Position numbers and translations under genes: made by a program | In this document: positions 10,005 through 16,806 of the stretch, one piece after another | How positions within the stretch are numbered: position 1 is the first letter of the stretch | How the letters are laid out: each line of letters begins with the position of its first letter | NCBI GenBank assembly: GCA_002728255.1 | Contig: PBWV01000019.1 | Coordinates: 1 to 48,416 of the forward strand | Origin: Rhodospirillaceae bacterium | GTDB lineage: Bacteria; Pseudomonadota; Alphaproteobacteria; UBA7887 | DNA: 48,416 bases | Direction of reading: 5' to 3' | Notes under the pieces: generated by a model | The model's input: only the letters and a program-made list of their open reading frames with translations | Database searches by the model: none | Told to the model about the DNA's origin: nothing

Positions 10005-12989
10005 ATGAGGAACTCTTTTCCCAAAATAAGTGCCGTAGCGCTTGGAACGCCCTTTCTTGACAATCTTGCAAGCGGCCTGCTGGCTAGGCACGAGACATTT
10101 AATTTAGGAAATACAGTAATCATATTGCCCGCTGAGGAGGCTCGCCGCAATTTACTCAAACTTCTAACCATAATGGCTAAACCCAAGGCATTACTGCTTC
10201 CCCGGACGTATATTGTTTCCGAAAGTCTGCCGCTTAAAAGACCTCACCGCGAGGGAGACCTGGACTTGATTCTTCCTTGTAACCTTTTGCCCGATACGCT
10301 CCCCATACCCTCAGTATATCGAGATCTCCTCTTAGGAAGGCTGATCTTCCAATGGCAAAAAGGGCCTGACCAAACTAATTCTCAGTCTTTACATCGTTGT
10401 CTAAAAATTGCACCTACCCTAGGCTCTTTCTTTGATGAATTGCAGTCCTTTCAAACCAACTATTTGTCCTTGGACGATTCTTTTACATCAGATGATGCCT
10501 TACACTGGGAGTCCATAAACAAATTTCTTAAAATTATCATAAAACAGTGGCCCCTCATTCTGAGTGAACAAATTTGGCAAGACCCTATTTTGTATGATCA
10601 ACTTATTACAAAATTACTAATCCAGCACTGGGAAAAAGAACCGCCTAAAAATAATATCATAGTTGCCGGTTTCACGGGAAATCTTCCTCACATTGCTAAT
10701 CTCTTATCGTTCATTGCTTCACTGCCAACAGGACACGTGGTAATACCCAGCTTGGATCATAAACTGGGCAAAAAGACCTGGGAAAATCTCCCAGAAGATC
10801 ATCCGCAACACGCACTAAAGAAACTCCTAGTTGACCTGAAAATTGAAAACAACCTAGTGCCAGAGTGGTTTAGTCCGTTTGGTTATTCAAATTCCAGTGC
10901 TCCACCCAAGCATCCGGTTAACTTTATTACATCTGTCTTTAGCCCGCGAGAAGACGAGCAGGCTACTAACACTGGACGAAAAACATCGAGTGATCTGACC
11001 ATGATCACGGCTCACAACATCTACAGTGAGGCTCAAACAATTTCGCTTATTATCAAAGAGTTCCTCACCACCAATAAGGGGGATGTGAGCCTTTTTGCCG
11101 AGGACCAAAACCTCGTAAAACAAGTTGCGCTGCAACTTCGACGCTGGAACCTTGATCTTTGCAACTATATAGCTCACAGCCCCGACCCAGCGGGCGCCGG
11201 GTCTTTCCTTCAATTAGTTGGAGAAATGATATGTTCAGCTGTTTCGCCGGTTTCCTTGTTGTCGACCCTTAAACACCCAATGTGCACTGGTCATACTTCT
11301 TTAACCCTTTTCAAGAATTTGCGTAACGAGCTAGAACTGAAATGCTTGAGGGGCATCAGGCCAGAACCTGGGTTTTCTGGCATAATAGCTTCACTAAACA
11401 ATAGCGCCGACAAAAATAGGGAATTAATAACTTGGCTCCAAAGCCTTGAAAAAGCCTCCCTTTATTTCTGCCGACTGGTGAAAAGCAAAAAGGCGCCACT
11501 CAAGAGTCTCCTGGCCGCCCATATCGATTTTTCAATATGGCTTTCCGAGACGGGAAAGTATCCTGCAACGCGGCTCTGGAAATCTTATGAAGGCAAACGT
11601 CTTAACCAACATCTACTTTCGCTATGTTCCACCTTAAAAAACTCGTTTATTATAGAGGGAACTGAATACTCGGATATCTTTAAGTGCCTTCTCCACAATA
11701 TTCCAAATGACACTCAAGATTTTGATACCACTCGTATCTATGCTTATGATCCGAAACGAACACTGTTCAGTTCTTCGCCCTTACACATTTTAGCAGGAAT
11801 GAACGAAACAACCTGGCCCTCGTTTTCACAGAACGATGAGTGGCTCAGTCCACAAATGCGGAGAGCCCTCAGCTTACCTAGCAAAAAGAAAACGAAGGCC
11901 TTTGCTAATCTCCATATCTGCCAGGCATCCACAGCCTCCAAAATAGTTCTTACTCGAAGCAAAGTGGCTAACGGGGTTCAGACCACCCCAGCCTATCACT
12001 TCGCACGTATAGAGAACGCCGCGAAAAAGGAAGGAATGCACGAAGCTGTAGACAAAAGCCGCTACTGGGATCACATGGGTCAAAATTTAGAACACAAAAC
12101 ACTCAGTATTCCACAAAGCCGCCGCCCTGCGCCGACCCCACCCATATCGGCACGGCCCCGAACCTTGTCTGCAACCCAGATTGAACGTTGGATGCAGGAT
12201 CCATATGGCATTTTTGTATCTACAATTCTTAAAATTAGACCACTTCGGTCTATCGATGCGAAAGTAAATCCATCTGACTATGGCCGAATGGTCCACCAAG
12301 CCCTGGAAAGATTTTTACAAACCTACCCCACAAATCTACCACCCAACCCCTATCAGAAATTACTCGAATTCGGCCAGATTTCTTTTAGGAAAGTGCGGAC
12401 GCAGCCGGAAGCATACGCATTCTGGTGGCCCCGCTTTGAAAGATTAGCACGATATTTTATAGACCAAGAGAACAAAAGCCGGAAACATATTACCGCCGCC
12501 TATGCAGAAGTTAGTGGCACCACTACCATAGATTTACCCTCTGGCCCATTTACCCTAACTACAAGGGCAGATCGTATAAATATACGTGTCGATAGAAAAG
12601 TGGACATAATCGAATACAAAACTGGTGCATTACCAACAACTCCTAAGATACTAAATGGGAGCAAGCCTCAGCTTTTGCTAGAAGCCCTGATTATCTTAAA
12701 TAATGGCTTCGAAGAAATTGACACGAGAGCAATCAACTCCATTGTTTCAACCCAATTGAGCGGAGCGTTAACTGCTGGAAATCGCCGGACGATCGAAAAA
12801 GGGATTTCAACAAAAGCCACAGAACTTTTATCCACGATCATCGAATTGATCGAATCCTTTGATAATGAAAATACACCTTATTACTTCGTGCCTCACAATG
12901 ATTTTGCACCTCAATACAACGAATTTGAGCACCTTGCCCGAATGAAGGAATGGATAGCACTTAGCCAAAAACAGAGAACGGAAGAATGA
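10005..12989 (+). CDS. addB: Double-strand break repair nuclease subunit AddB
   Basis: Subunit of the AddAB helicase-nuclease that resects DNA ends before RecA loading. The 994 residues follow the alphaproteobacterial AddB layout: an inactivated helicase-like N-terminal region and a C-terminal PD-(D/E)XK nuclease. The nuclease motifs are all present: H764 in GRMVHQALERF, D856 in RADRINI, and E870/K872 in IIEYKTG, followed by PQLLLEALI. The middle motif is usually DYK and is EYK here, an allowed variant. It starts 11 bases after murU and overlaps addA by four bases (ATGA). Confidence 0.93.
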   Translation: MRNSFPKISAVALGTPFLDNLASGLLARHETFNLGNTVIILPAEEARRNLLKLLTIMAKPKALLLPRTYIVSESLPLKRPHREGDLDLILPCNLLPDTLPIPSVYRDLLLGRLIFQWQKGPDQTNSQSLHRCLKIAPTLGSFFDELQSFQTNYLSLDDSFTSDDALHWESINKFLKIIIKQWPLILSEQIWQDPILYDQLITKLLIQHWEKEPPKNNIIVAGFTGNLPHIANLLSFIASLPTGHVVIPSLDHKLGKKTWENLPEDHPQHALKKLLVDLKIENNLVPEWFSPFGYSNSSAPPKHPVNFITSVFSPREDEQATNTGRKTSSDLTMITAHNIYSEAQTISLIIKEFLTTNKGDVSLFAEDQNLVKQVALQLRRWNLDLCNYIAHSPDPAGAGSFLQLVGEMICSAVSPVSLLSTLKHPMCTGHTSLTLFKNLRNELELKCLRGIRPEPGFSGIIASLNNSADKNRELITWLQSLEKASLYFCRLVKSKKAPLKSLLAAHIDFSIWLSETGKYPATRLWKSYEGKRLNQHLLSLCSTLKNSFIIEGTEYSDIFKCLLHNIPNDTQDFDTTRIYAYDPKRTLFSSSPLHILAGMNETTWPSFSQNDEWLSPQMRRALSLPSKKKTKAFANLHICQASTASKIVLTRSKVANGVQTTPAYHFARIENAAKKEGMHEAVDKSRYWDHMGQNLEHKTLSIPQSRRPAPTPPISARPRTLSATQIERWMQDPYGIFVSTILKIRPLRSIDAKVNPSDYGRMVHQALERFLQTYPTNLPPNPYQKLLEFGQISFRKVRTQPEAYAFWWPRFERLARYFIDQENKSRKHITAAYAEVSGTTTIDLPSGPFTLTTRADRINIRVDRKVDIIEYKTGALPTTPKILNGSKPQLLLEALIILNNGFEEIDTRAINSIVSTQLSGALTAGNRRTIEKGISTKATELLSTIIELIESFDNENTPYYFVPHNDFAPQYNEFEHLARMKEWIALSQKQRTEE

Positions 12990-15900
12990 AATCGGGACTT
13001 CCCAAGATTAATTCGCTGCAACAGAAAGCGGCTGATCCAGTAACATCTGCATGGGTTGAGGCGTCAGCTGGTACCGGAAAAACCAAAGTGCTTGTAGATC
13101 GAGTCCTCCGACTCTTACTTCACGGCAATCAACCATCTAATATATTGTGCCTTACATATACTCGTTCAGCGGCTGCGGAGATGCAGGAGCGCTTAAACGA
13201 GCGCCTCCTTTCATGGTCAACCATGTCCAAACAAGCGCTCCAAAATGACCTTGAATCTCTGACTGCAAGAGCTGTCGACTCACACCAATTAGGGGCCGCC
13301 GAGACTCTTTATGAACGCGTGGCTAACTCTGAATTTCAGCCAAAATTTCATACTATCCATTCATTCTGTGAAACCCTTTTAAGAAGGTTTCCTCAAGAAG
13401 CGGGTGTTGATACTAACTTTACCATACTAGATGAGCATGGCGCCAAAACCCTTCTGCGAACAGCCAGCGAACTCATATTACAACAACTCCAAGGTCCAAA
13501 AAGCAACAAATCCGAAGGCGATATTTCCTGCATTAGCCAATATGTTAATAACGAAAGTTTTTCTCGTCTCCTGGATCTATTAGTCGCCGATAGATGGCGA
13601 CTAGAAAAATTTCTTAGGAACAACGATGAAAATCGAATATCATGTGCAATTGCAGAAATGCTGGGCCTATCAAGGCTAACCTCTCCTGACCTGCTAGTCC
13701 AAGTCGCATGTGCAAACACCCATATCGATGCCGAAAGTTGGCGATCTTCAGTATGCTACCTACAAGCCGGCTCCAAAACAGACCACGCCCGAGCGCAAAC
13801 AATTGATGAATGGATCTCTGCTTCACAACATACACGAAGAGAGTTATTCGAAAAATATTGTGCTGCCTTTCTCACACGCGACCAATTGCCGATAAAAACA
13901 TTGGTGTCAGCGTCCACCCTCGCAAAGAAACCAGATGCTCTACTAGCTCTCAGAGCCGAGCAATCTCGTCTTCTAGAAATCACCACCAAAATTAAACGGG
14001 CTAAAATCGTCCAATGTAGCTCGGCCTTATTAAATTTAACCAAAAAAATCCTGGAGCAGTTTAGTCAGGAAAAAATTAAACAAAATTGCTTGGATTACAA
14101 TGACTTAATCATTAAATCTGGCATCATCTTAACATCGGCCGACGTGTCATCGTGGGTGCTCTATAAGGTTGATAGAAGTGTTGATCACCTTCTGATAGAT
14201 GAAGCCCAGGATACTAGTTTGGACCAGTGGGAAATTATCCGCGCCCTGGCATCCGAATTCTTTGCGGGAGAAGGAGCGGAAGAACACCCAAGAACAATTT
14301 TCGCGGTTGGGGATTATAAACAATCCATCTATAGCTTCCAACGTGCAAATCCCGAGTCCTTCAACAAGATGCGTGATTATTTTAGAGATCGCGCTAATAA
14401 CGCATCAGCTCCCTGGGCTGATATTGGCCTTCAGGTCTCATTTAGATCCACCTCCCCAATATTAGAATCCGTTGACCTTGTCTTCGATGAAGTCTTCGCT
14501 GCGCCAGTTGAATTTTCTGATGAAACACTGCCTCCTCTCAAGCATTTTTGTTGGCGCGATGGAGCCCCTGGCTTAGTTGAGGTTTGGCCCATAATACAGC
14601 CCAGTAGAGACCCAAAGCCAGCTGCAAGGCGGCTCCCGACCCACGTGTCTGCAGAGCGCTCTTCACGAACAACACTTGCCCAAATTGTGGCCAGCAAAAT
14701 AAATGAGATCTTGTCGGACAGCAGGCGCGGCCATTCCAACTGTTTTCTACCTGAAGATATCATGGTTTTAGTGAGGCGTCGTGGGCCGTTCGTCTTAGAT
14801 TTGCTGAAAGCACTTAAGAACTTGAAGATACCAGTGACTGGGCTCGATGGAATGGCTCTAACGGACAATATTGCGGTCATGGACCTTATCTCTGTGGGGC
14901 ATTTCTTACTTAATCCTGATGATGACCTCAGCCTGGCCGAAGTTCTTAAAAGCCCTCTATGCAACTTAGGTGACGAAGATCTATTTAAGCTCGCCCATAA
15001 TAGACATGGTTCGATATGGCACTCACTCTGCGATTGGGATACCACCAATTCACAATTTCAGGAGGCTCGTTTCCTACTGGAAGACTTGATAGAGAAGTCA
15101 AAAATTTTTACTCCCTCCGAATTATATGCAGATTTACTTTTAACACGGAATTATAAAAAATACTTTGTATCTAAAATTGGAATTGAATGTATCGACCCCA
15201 TAAATGCATTTCTCAATAAAAGCATTGAATACGAGGCTAAAAATAATTCATCTCTTGAAGGCTTTATTCATTGGTTTGAGAACAATGGCGCCATCAGCAC
15301 ACGCGAACCAGCCCTAAAAAGAAATAATGCCGTTAAAATTCTTACGGTGCATGGTGCGAAGGGGTTAGAATCACCCGTTGTATTTCTTCCAGACACGGTC
15401 CAGAAGAGTCGGGCCCACAATCCTGTTTTTTGGCCCGACAAAGCACCCTTCCCTATCTGGATCCCAAATGCCACTCTTTTGGACCCACTGACCAGAAAGT
15501 GGGTCCTGGAGAAAAAAAAGCGAGAAGCGGAGGAATACAAGCGACTACTATATGTGGCGATGACGAGAGCGAAGGATCAACTCTATATATGTGGTTGGAG
15601 TGAGACATCCAATATAGCATCCGATTGTTGGCACACTATTGTCAGCCAAACGTTGGAAAAAGTTGTTGAAGAAACTGATACAAACATCCCAGACAGCGCA
15701 CAAAAGAATGGGATTTCTAGCATTTTACGCCTTGCTAATTTTACGCCTGGGAAAAAAACTATCGCCTATCCTGGGCCTCCGTTCAAAAACCCCACCCCTC
15801 TCCCCACCTGGATTAACTCAAACTTAACGAGGCATGACCACCAATCCATACACCGGACTTCCCCCACATTTGGAACATCAGGCACCTTTATGGGCAATAA

Positions 15901-16408
15901 ACAACCCATCGAAGCATTAATCGCCCAGTTAGTCGACTCCCTTTACCACATAACTGAATCTGAAAGAGAACAGACCGCCAATAAATTTGTATCTCGCCTT
16001 TCCTACAGGCACGACACAAACTTACTCCATGCGATCAAAGAGTGGGCCCTAAAGATTCTTGGAACCAAAACTCTCTCCTTTCTATTTCAAGATAATACGC
16101 GAGGATGTCTCCCCATCTCTGGTCCCATAAGATATCGTGAGCGGACTTTGTTATTTCATGAAACCATTGAAAGGCTTGTCGACTCGGATGATTCCTTATT
16201 GCTGGTGAATTTTCTAGTTGGAAACAACTCTCACACAAACAGGCCCGGCCCTCCGCTTCCGGCCGCTTTCTTACGAAAAATTGCTGTAAGGGCATCTTTA
16301 GCCAAATTAGTGTTCCCACAAAAGGATGTAACTTCGGCGATCCTTTGGGTAGATGAACAAAAGCTTCAACATCTCTCCAGTGATCTGCTCAAGAAATGCC
16401 TATCTTGA
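12986..16408 (+). CDS. addA: Helicase subunit AddA with degenerate nuclease domain
   Basis: UvrD-type helicase motor of AddAB. Helicase motifs are complete: Walker A in [42 protein letters not shown], Walker B in [46 protein letters not shown] and [13 protein letters not shown]. The C-terminal nuclease domain can be aligned by its flanks, but its catalytic residues are gone. The usual GRIDRL reads ETIERL (around 1059-1064), the usual LDYKT reads VNFLV (1074-1078), and the His box reads [11 protein letters not shown]. The 1140-residue length is near normal, so the domain is present as a scaffold. No frameshift is visible. Confidence 0.93.
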
Positions 16409-16485
16409 CGATAGACCTCGACAACCTTAAGTTTCGGCGACTGAGTTTGCCCTACAGGCTGTATAATGCGATGAAAGGATGTGGA

Positions 16486-16806
16486 ATGACCTCTAATAAA
16501 GTTACTGATTCATCATTTGAGGCCGATGTCATTAAATCGGAGAAACCTGTTCTGGTGGACTTTTGGGCTGAATGGTGTGGGCCATGTGTACAAATCGCCC
16601 CGATGCTGGAAGAACTAGCAAATGAGTACAAAGACAGCCTGACCGTGGCAAAGGTTAACATAGATGAGAACCCTGAGACGCCGGCTAAATATGGAGTACG
16701 AGGAATCCCTACTCTAATCCTTTTTAAGAATGGCGAAATTGCCGCCACAAAAGTTGGCGCGGCTCCTAAGCGACAACTATCGGAGTGGATAAGCACTTCT
16801 CTATAA
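16486..16806 (+). CDS. trxA: Thioredoxin
   Basis: A small dithiol oxidoreductase keeping cytoplasmic protein cysteines reduced. With ATG at 16486 the protein is 106 residues, the standard size, and carries the active site WCGPC (C31 and C34) in [11 protein letters not shown] plus the cis-Pro loop [12 protein letters not shown]. An AAGGAT Shine-Dalgarno-like element lies about eight bases upstream. In-frame ATGs at 16396 and 16471 would add an unrelated N-terminal stretch and are rejected. It ends the addBA run and is convergent with folC. Confidence 0.96.

Follow-up and report, generated by a model that had tools for sequence, protein, structure and literature searches.

The addAB locus and its two nuclease domains

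Within a 48,416-nucleotide stretch of alphaproteobacterial DNA, the whole of which we call the window, addB and addA adjoin on the + strand, with the start of addA overlapping the end of addB by 4 bases. The partner subunit gene addB (10005-12989) encodes a protein of 994 aa that matches the profile TIGR02786 (addB_alphas) at 542.7 bits, above its cut-off. The addA gene (12986-16408) is one unbroken open reading frame (ORF) for 1140 aa, in agreement with a first-pass annotation of this DNA that saw no frameshift in it. A profile search matched residues 12-1128 of AddA to NCBIfam addA_alphas (TIGR02784) at 879.7 bits, the curated cut-off being 860.75 bits, and Pfam UvrD-helicase and UvrD_C were matched as well. 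SF1A helicase motifs I to VI, placed by motif position and by columns invariant in two alignments, are all present and intact across 13061-15571 (+), as had also been claimed. They are followed by a linker (15740-15907, +) and a degenerate RecB-type PD-(D/E)XK domain (15908-16405, +), and an ORF for trxA (16396-16806, +) lies downstream.

An active RecB-type nuclease carries His, Asp, Asp/Glu and Lys together with a QxxxY motif; the corresponding positions of this AddA read A980, E1062, N1075 and L1077, and K1098xxxR1102. The His-motif region is occupied by EALIAQL (residues 976-982; 15911-15931), in which alignment places Ala980 (GCC, 15923-15925, +) at the former His, so that the altered His box reported earlier is indeed altered. 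ETIERL (residues 1059-1064; 16160-16177, +) contains, by alignment with relatives, a Gly to Glu1059 change at its first residue and an Asp to Glu1062 change (codon 16169-16171); the first-pass annotation had derived this motif from GRIDRL, and the replacement stands, the motif of the aligned relatives being given as GQIDRL. Its reading of VNFLV for LDYKT (16205-16219) is likewise recovered within LVNFLVG (residues 1073-1079; 16202-16222), where alignment sets N1075-F-L1077 (16208-16216, +) in place of DYK through Asp to Asn1075 (16208-16210) and Lys to Leu1077 (16214-16216). To these we add loss of the QxxxY pair, since the aligned residues, K1098xxxR1102 (16277-16291, +), reflect Gln to Lys1098 (16277-16279) and Tyr to Arg1102 (16289-16291). 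Pfam PDDEXK_1 gave no match to the AddA C-terminal domain, and an HMM of intact alphaproteobacterial AddA nuclease domains scored 60 bits here versus about 150-245 bits for most intact domains.

In AddB, on the other hand, the PD-(D/E)XK nuclease domain (12162-12713, +; PF12705, 57.4 bits) is intact: a family alignment upholds the proposal that H764, D856 and an EYK at 870-872 are kept, H764, D856, E870 and K872 all being in place. The EYK conforms to the standard (D/E)xK pattern, and the sister species reads DYK. The H/D/(D/E)/K set is present in all eight family genomes that cover the region and, more widely, 94 of 97 surveyed loci keep these residues in AddB, the rest being two partial alignments and one Asp to Asn change. 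In the latter (L061), AddB reads NYK for DYK and the accompanying AddA keeps all of its catalytic residues, which may be a mirror-image loss or an error in metagenome assembly. Given that AddB is intact in 94 of 97 loci and that its one Asp to Asn case has an intact AddA, nuclease loss is biased to AddA. Judged by sequence, the protein encoded in the window is an AddA by descent, although it lacks the residues of a RecB-type nuclease; the AddA catalytic residues that belong to a dual-nuclease AddAB are missing, and the complex should not be classed as one.

Distribution of the loss among Alphaproteobacteria

AddA was found in 259 of 289 genomes of the class, and nearly all among the matches listed, which were the stronger ones, reach the end of the profile. 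The residues H/D/D/K are present in 97 of 103 aligned AddA nuclease domains, indicating that their loss here is not due to chance; the six exceptions comprise four from this family, one domain cut by a contig end and one conservative EYK. Most of 20 further, distant class members retain a catalytic set. Two of them with small genomes (G014, 1.7 Mb, L139; G027, 1.6 Mb, L136) encode an AddA without a recognisable nuclease domain and still have an AddB-like ORF that matches PDDEXK_1; these represent apparently independent AddA nuclease losses in two other small-genome families.

The order to which the window genome (G000) belongs was sampled as one family of nine genomes. Its closest relative, the single-cell genome AG-404-I19 (G001), is of the same genus (g1), and the two AddA proteins are 76% identical; the plate of this cell appears in a list of marine single cells that were sorted together with Prochlorococcus (PMC6122165). 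G001 has no normal DYK and shows the same loss, reading A, D, N, L, K and R at the His, Asp, Asp, Lys, Gln and Tyr positions, with Asp still at residue 1062. An assembly or sequencing artefact deserves mention, because the window genome is a 53-contig draft whose contamination is estimated at 4.84%, yet the ORF is intact and the differences are in-frame, involve multiple codons and extend across the domain. Sequencing error is ruled out by the same state in G001, which is independently assembled and a different species, and we consider the chance of an artefact of any kind to be negligible.

A tree of the helicase region places G000 and G001 as sister to four genomes of genus g5, in one clade with support of 100/98. 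In this tree the g1 branch is very long, at 1.6 changes per column (window 12986-15740), far exceeding the branches of relatives. The AddA nuclease is defective in all six genomes of g1 and g5, in graded states, and is intact in three other genera of the family (G002, G003 and G004). Within g5, G005 keeps His, Asp and Lys and has lost the Asp of DYK alone, which is Tyr; G008 has H to S, D to N and K to L, and shares NFL with g1; and in G006 and G007 AddA ends at residue 919, the domain being cleanly deleted and trxA, which also adjoins these truncated genes, beginning shortly after. No remnant of the nuclease domain was found in any frame before trxA in G006 and G007, and a frameshift that split the domain in these two genomes is thereby ruled out. 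Loss of the AddA nuclease is a trait of the clade, something that the first-pass annotation had not anticipated, just as it had not anticipated the selection on the dead domain described below.

Intact relatives encode the DYK Asp by GAT or GAC; g1 and G008 have AAT at this codon and G005 has TAT, and single-base steps alone would suffice for a founding Asp to Asn change followed by Asn to Tyr in G005. Ancestry, convergence or exchange may each account for the N-F-L common to G008 and g1. A tree of the nuclease domain groups G008 with g1 (support 99/96), and a constraint that keeps G008 with G005 in this tree is not rejected (p-AU 0.131).

Constraint and predicted fold of the degenerate domain

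A graded series that ends in clean deletion in G006 and G007 is what plain decay would produce, the AddA nuclease having become dispensable on one occasion and its domain drifting since then towards deletion with no retained role. In support of this, identity of the defective domains to intact relatives falls to 20-24%, as compared to near 40% for the helicase. Yet four of the six defective genomes have neither stop nor frameshift, and in g1 constraint on the domain matches that on the helicase, with 79.0% identity between G000 and G001 versus 77.5%, and a dN/dS of 0.18 (0.11-0.29) versus 0.22. Were the 101 base differences between the two dead domains spread randomly, 66.7 +/- 3.9 changed codons would be expected; 35 are observed, far from the neutral expectation. 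The dead domain is under purifying selection within g1, as measured from one species pair (G000/G001), and plain decay is to us the less convincing account, to which we would nonetheless allow perhaps a minor share of credence. Between the same two species the linker (15740-15907) is fast-evolving: identity is 49%, so that about half of its residues differ, and dN/dS is about 1.9 (0.8-6.2) over 59 codons. The helicase of G006 and G007 also has a dN/dS of 0.22, denoting purifying selection without a nuclease domain.

An AlphaFold2 model of the domain (221 residues) has a core pLDDT above 90, and its best PDB matches in Foldseek are to Bacillus AddA (4cej and 3u44). The dead domain is thus predicted to fold like an AddA nuclease, the model having the fold of a RecB nuclease, and residues 1062, 1075 and 1077 (model 143, 156 and 158) map to the two strands on which the family has its active site. 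PD-(D/E)XK enzymes are known to shift their catalytic residues, and E1059, E1062 and D1066 are close to the former site, with K1098 and R1102 conserved in G001; the domain might therefore still be an active nuclease by means of relocated acidic or basic residues. No set of catalytic residues at shifted positions was found, however, and the DYK strand has Asn for Asp and Leu for Lys, with Ala replacing the His and KxxxR replacing QxxxY. Furthermore, G008 shares NFL and G006 and G007 live without the domain, and we view a relocated active site as very improbable. The central claim of the first-pass annotation, that AddA has lost its nuclease residues while AddB has kept its own, draws concordant support from the alignment, the single-cell relative, decay and deletion in sister species, and the structure model.

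A candidate single-nuclease AddAB and its relation to known systems

We favor, with a probability of roughly 0.7, a single-nuclease AddAB in which AddA is a motor with a pseudonuclease and AddB is the sole active nuclease, cutting the 5'-ended strand. The two nucleases of Bacillus AddAB divide the strands between them, AddA cutting the 3'-ended one and AddB the 5'-ended one, and Chi, when bound by AddB, shields the 3' strand from the AddA nuclease to yield a 3' overhang (PMC4824097, PMC4027173). By extrapolation from this biochemistry, the complex here would cut one strand only. AddA would still be its 3'-to-5' motor, and the nuclease domain would be a folded pseudonuclease without metal-binding and catalytic residues. 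Ends would be unwound and the 5'-ended strand alone degraded by AddB, presenting a 3' single strand to RecA from the outset. With the 3'-strand nuclease of AddA dead, protection of the 3' strand would not depend on Chi, and the complex would start out in the mode that AddAB normally enters after Chi. This would probably make ends ready for recombination everywhere, at the probable cost of a weaker destruction of linear foreign DNA. In the account of Helicobacter relayed by PMC4224334 (Amundsen 2009), nuclease-domain loss lowers exonuclease activity and repair can still operate.

In the cell the outcome may not be the same as for the isolated complex, since other nucleases could trim the ends, RecJ being present. 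It has to be considered, then, whether both strands are still cut because another nuclease replaces that of AddA in trans. The family has RecJ and G000 encodes an extra stand-alone PDDEXK_1 protein, but nothing corresponding to this protein is among the PDDEXK_1 matches of G001 and G005-G008, genomes with an intact AddA have RecJ too, and neither tracks the loss. We therefore consider replacement in trans to be improbable. The stand-alone protein (318 aa; G000:C14:5096-5755, L002) adjoins an ORF resembling the urease accessory gene ureG and is possibly on a contaminant contig. A link of RecJ or RecF to the loss is ruled out, both being present in nearly all genomes, and so is compensation by Ku-type end joining, as Ku was absent from all 11 genomes searched. 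G000 has two above-cut-off recF matches (C48:442-1416 and C19:55759-56787), which contamination, estimated at 4.84%, or a second recF may explain; two are present in G008 as well.

Returning to the single-nuclease AddAB, the dead domain would probably line or guide the exit channel of the 3' strand, or stabilize the complex, until lost as in G006 and G007. More tentatively, and with less confidence than we place in the loss of one nuclease, the complex could carry out Chi-independent resection of one strand with the dead domain in a new, selected role, as a guide for the 3' strand or a RecA-loading surface, mirroring RecC. A role as a retained scaffold conflicts in part with G006 and G007, whose constrained helicase lacks the domain.

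Bacillus subtilis AddAB (3u44, 4cej) has the same subunits, helicase motifs and AddA C-terminal fold as the system described here; it differs in having an active nuclease in each subunit, one per strand (PMC4824097, PMC4027173), while here the AddB residues alone remain. Caulobacter AddAB, also alphaproteobacterial, acts at chromosome breaks and is regulated by putative Chi sites (PMC5443536), whereas a dead 3'-strand nuclease predicts little need for Chi. The lineage offers a natural test of the two-nuclease, Chi-shielding model of AddAB, as the model predicts that it resects without Chi, destroys less foreign DNA and, perhaps, no longer shows Chi enrichment.

Loss of the AddA nuclease by truncation is already published, for Wolbachia of isopods, likewise Alphaproteobacteria, in which the rest of addA is under purifying selection (PMC4224334). 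Those losses arose by premature stop in endosymbionts (PMC4224334), unlike the point losses, domain kept under selection and clean deletions in sister species observed here, in a lineage known from marine plankton. In the open-access literature that we searched, we found no report that describes this lineage or an AddA pseudonuclease retained under selection. RecBCD similarly pairs an active RecB-family nuclease domain with a dead one (PMC1185551); its dead domain is in the AddB-like RecC, where it is kept in the path of the DNA, whereas here it is the RecB-like AddA that is dead. A passage from two nucleases to one has been proposed for the origin of RecBCD, with the opposite subunit inactivated (PMC1185551), and the present clade provides a series from two nucleases to one, through loss of one residue, of most residues and of the whole domain.
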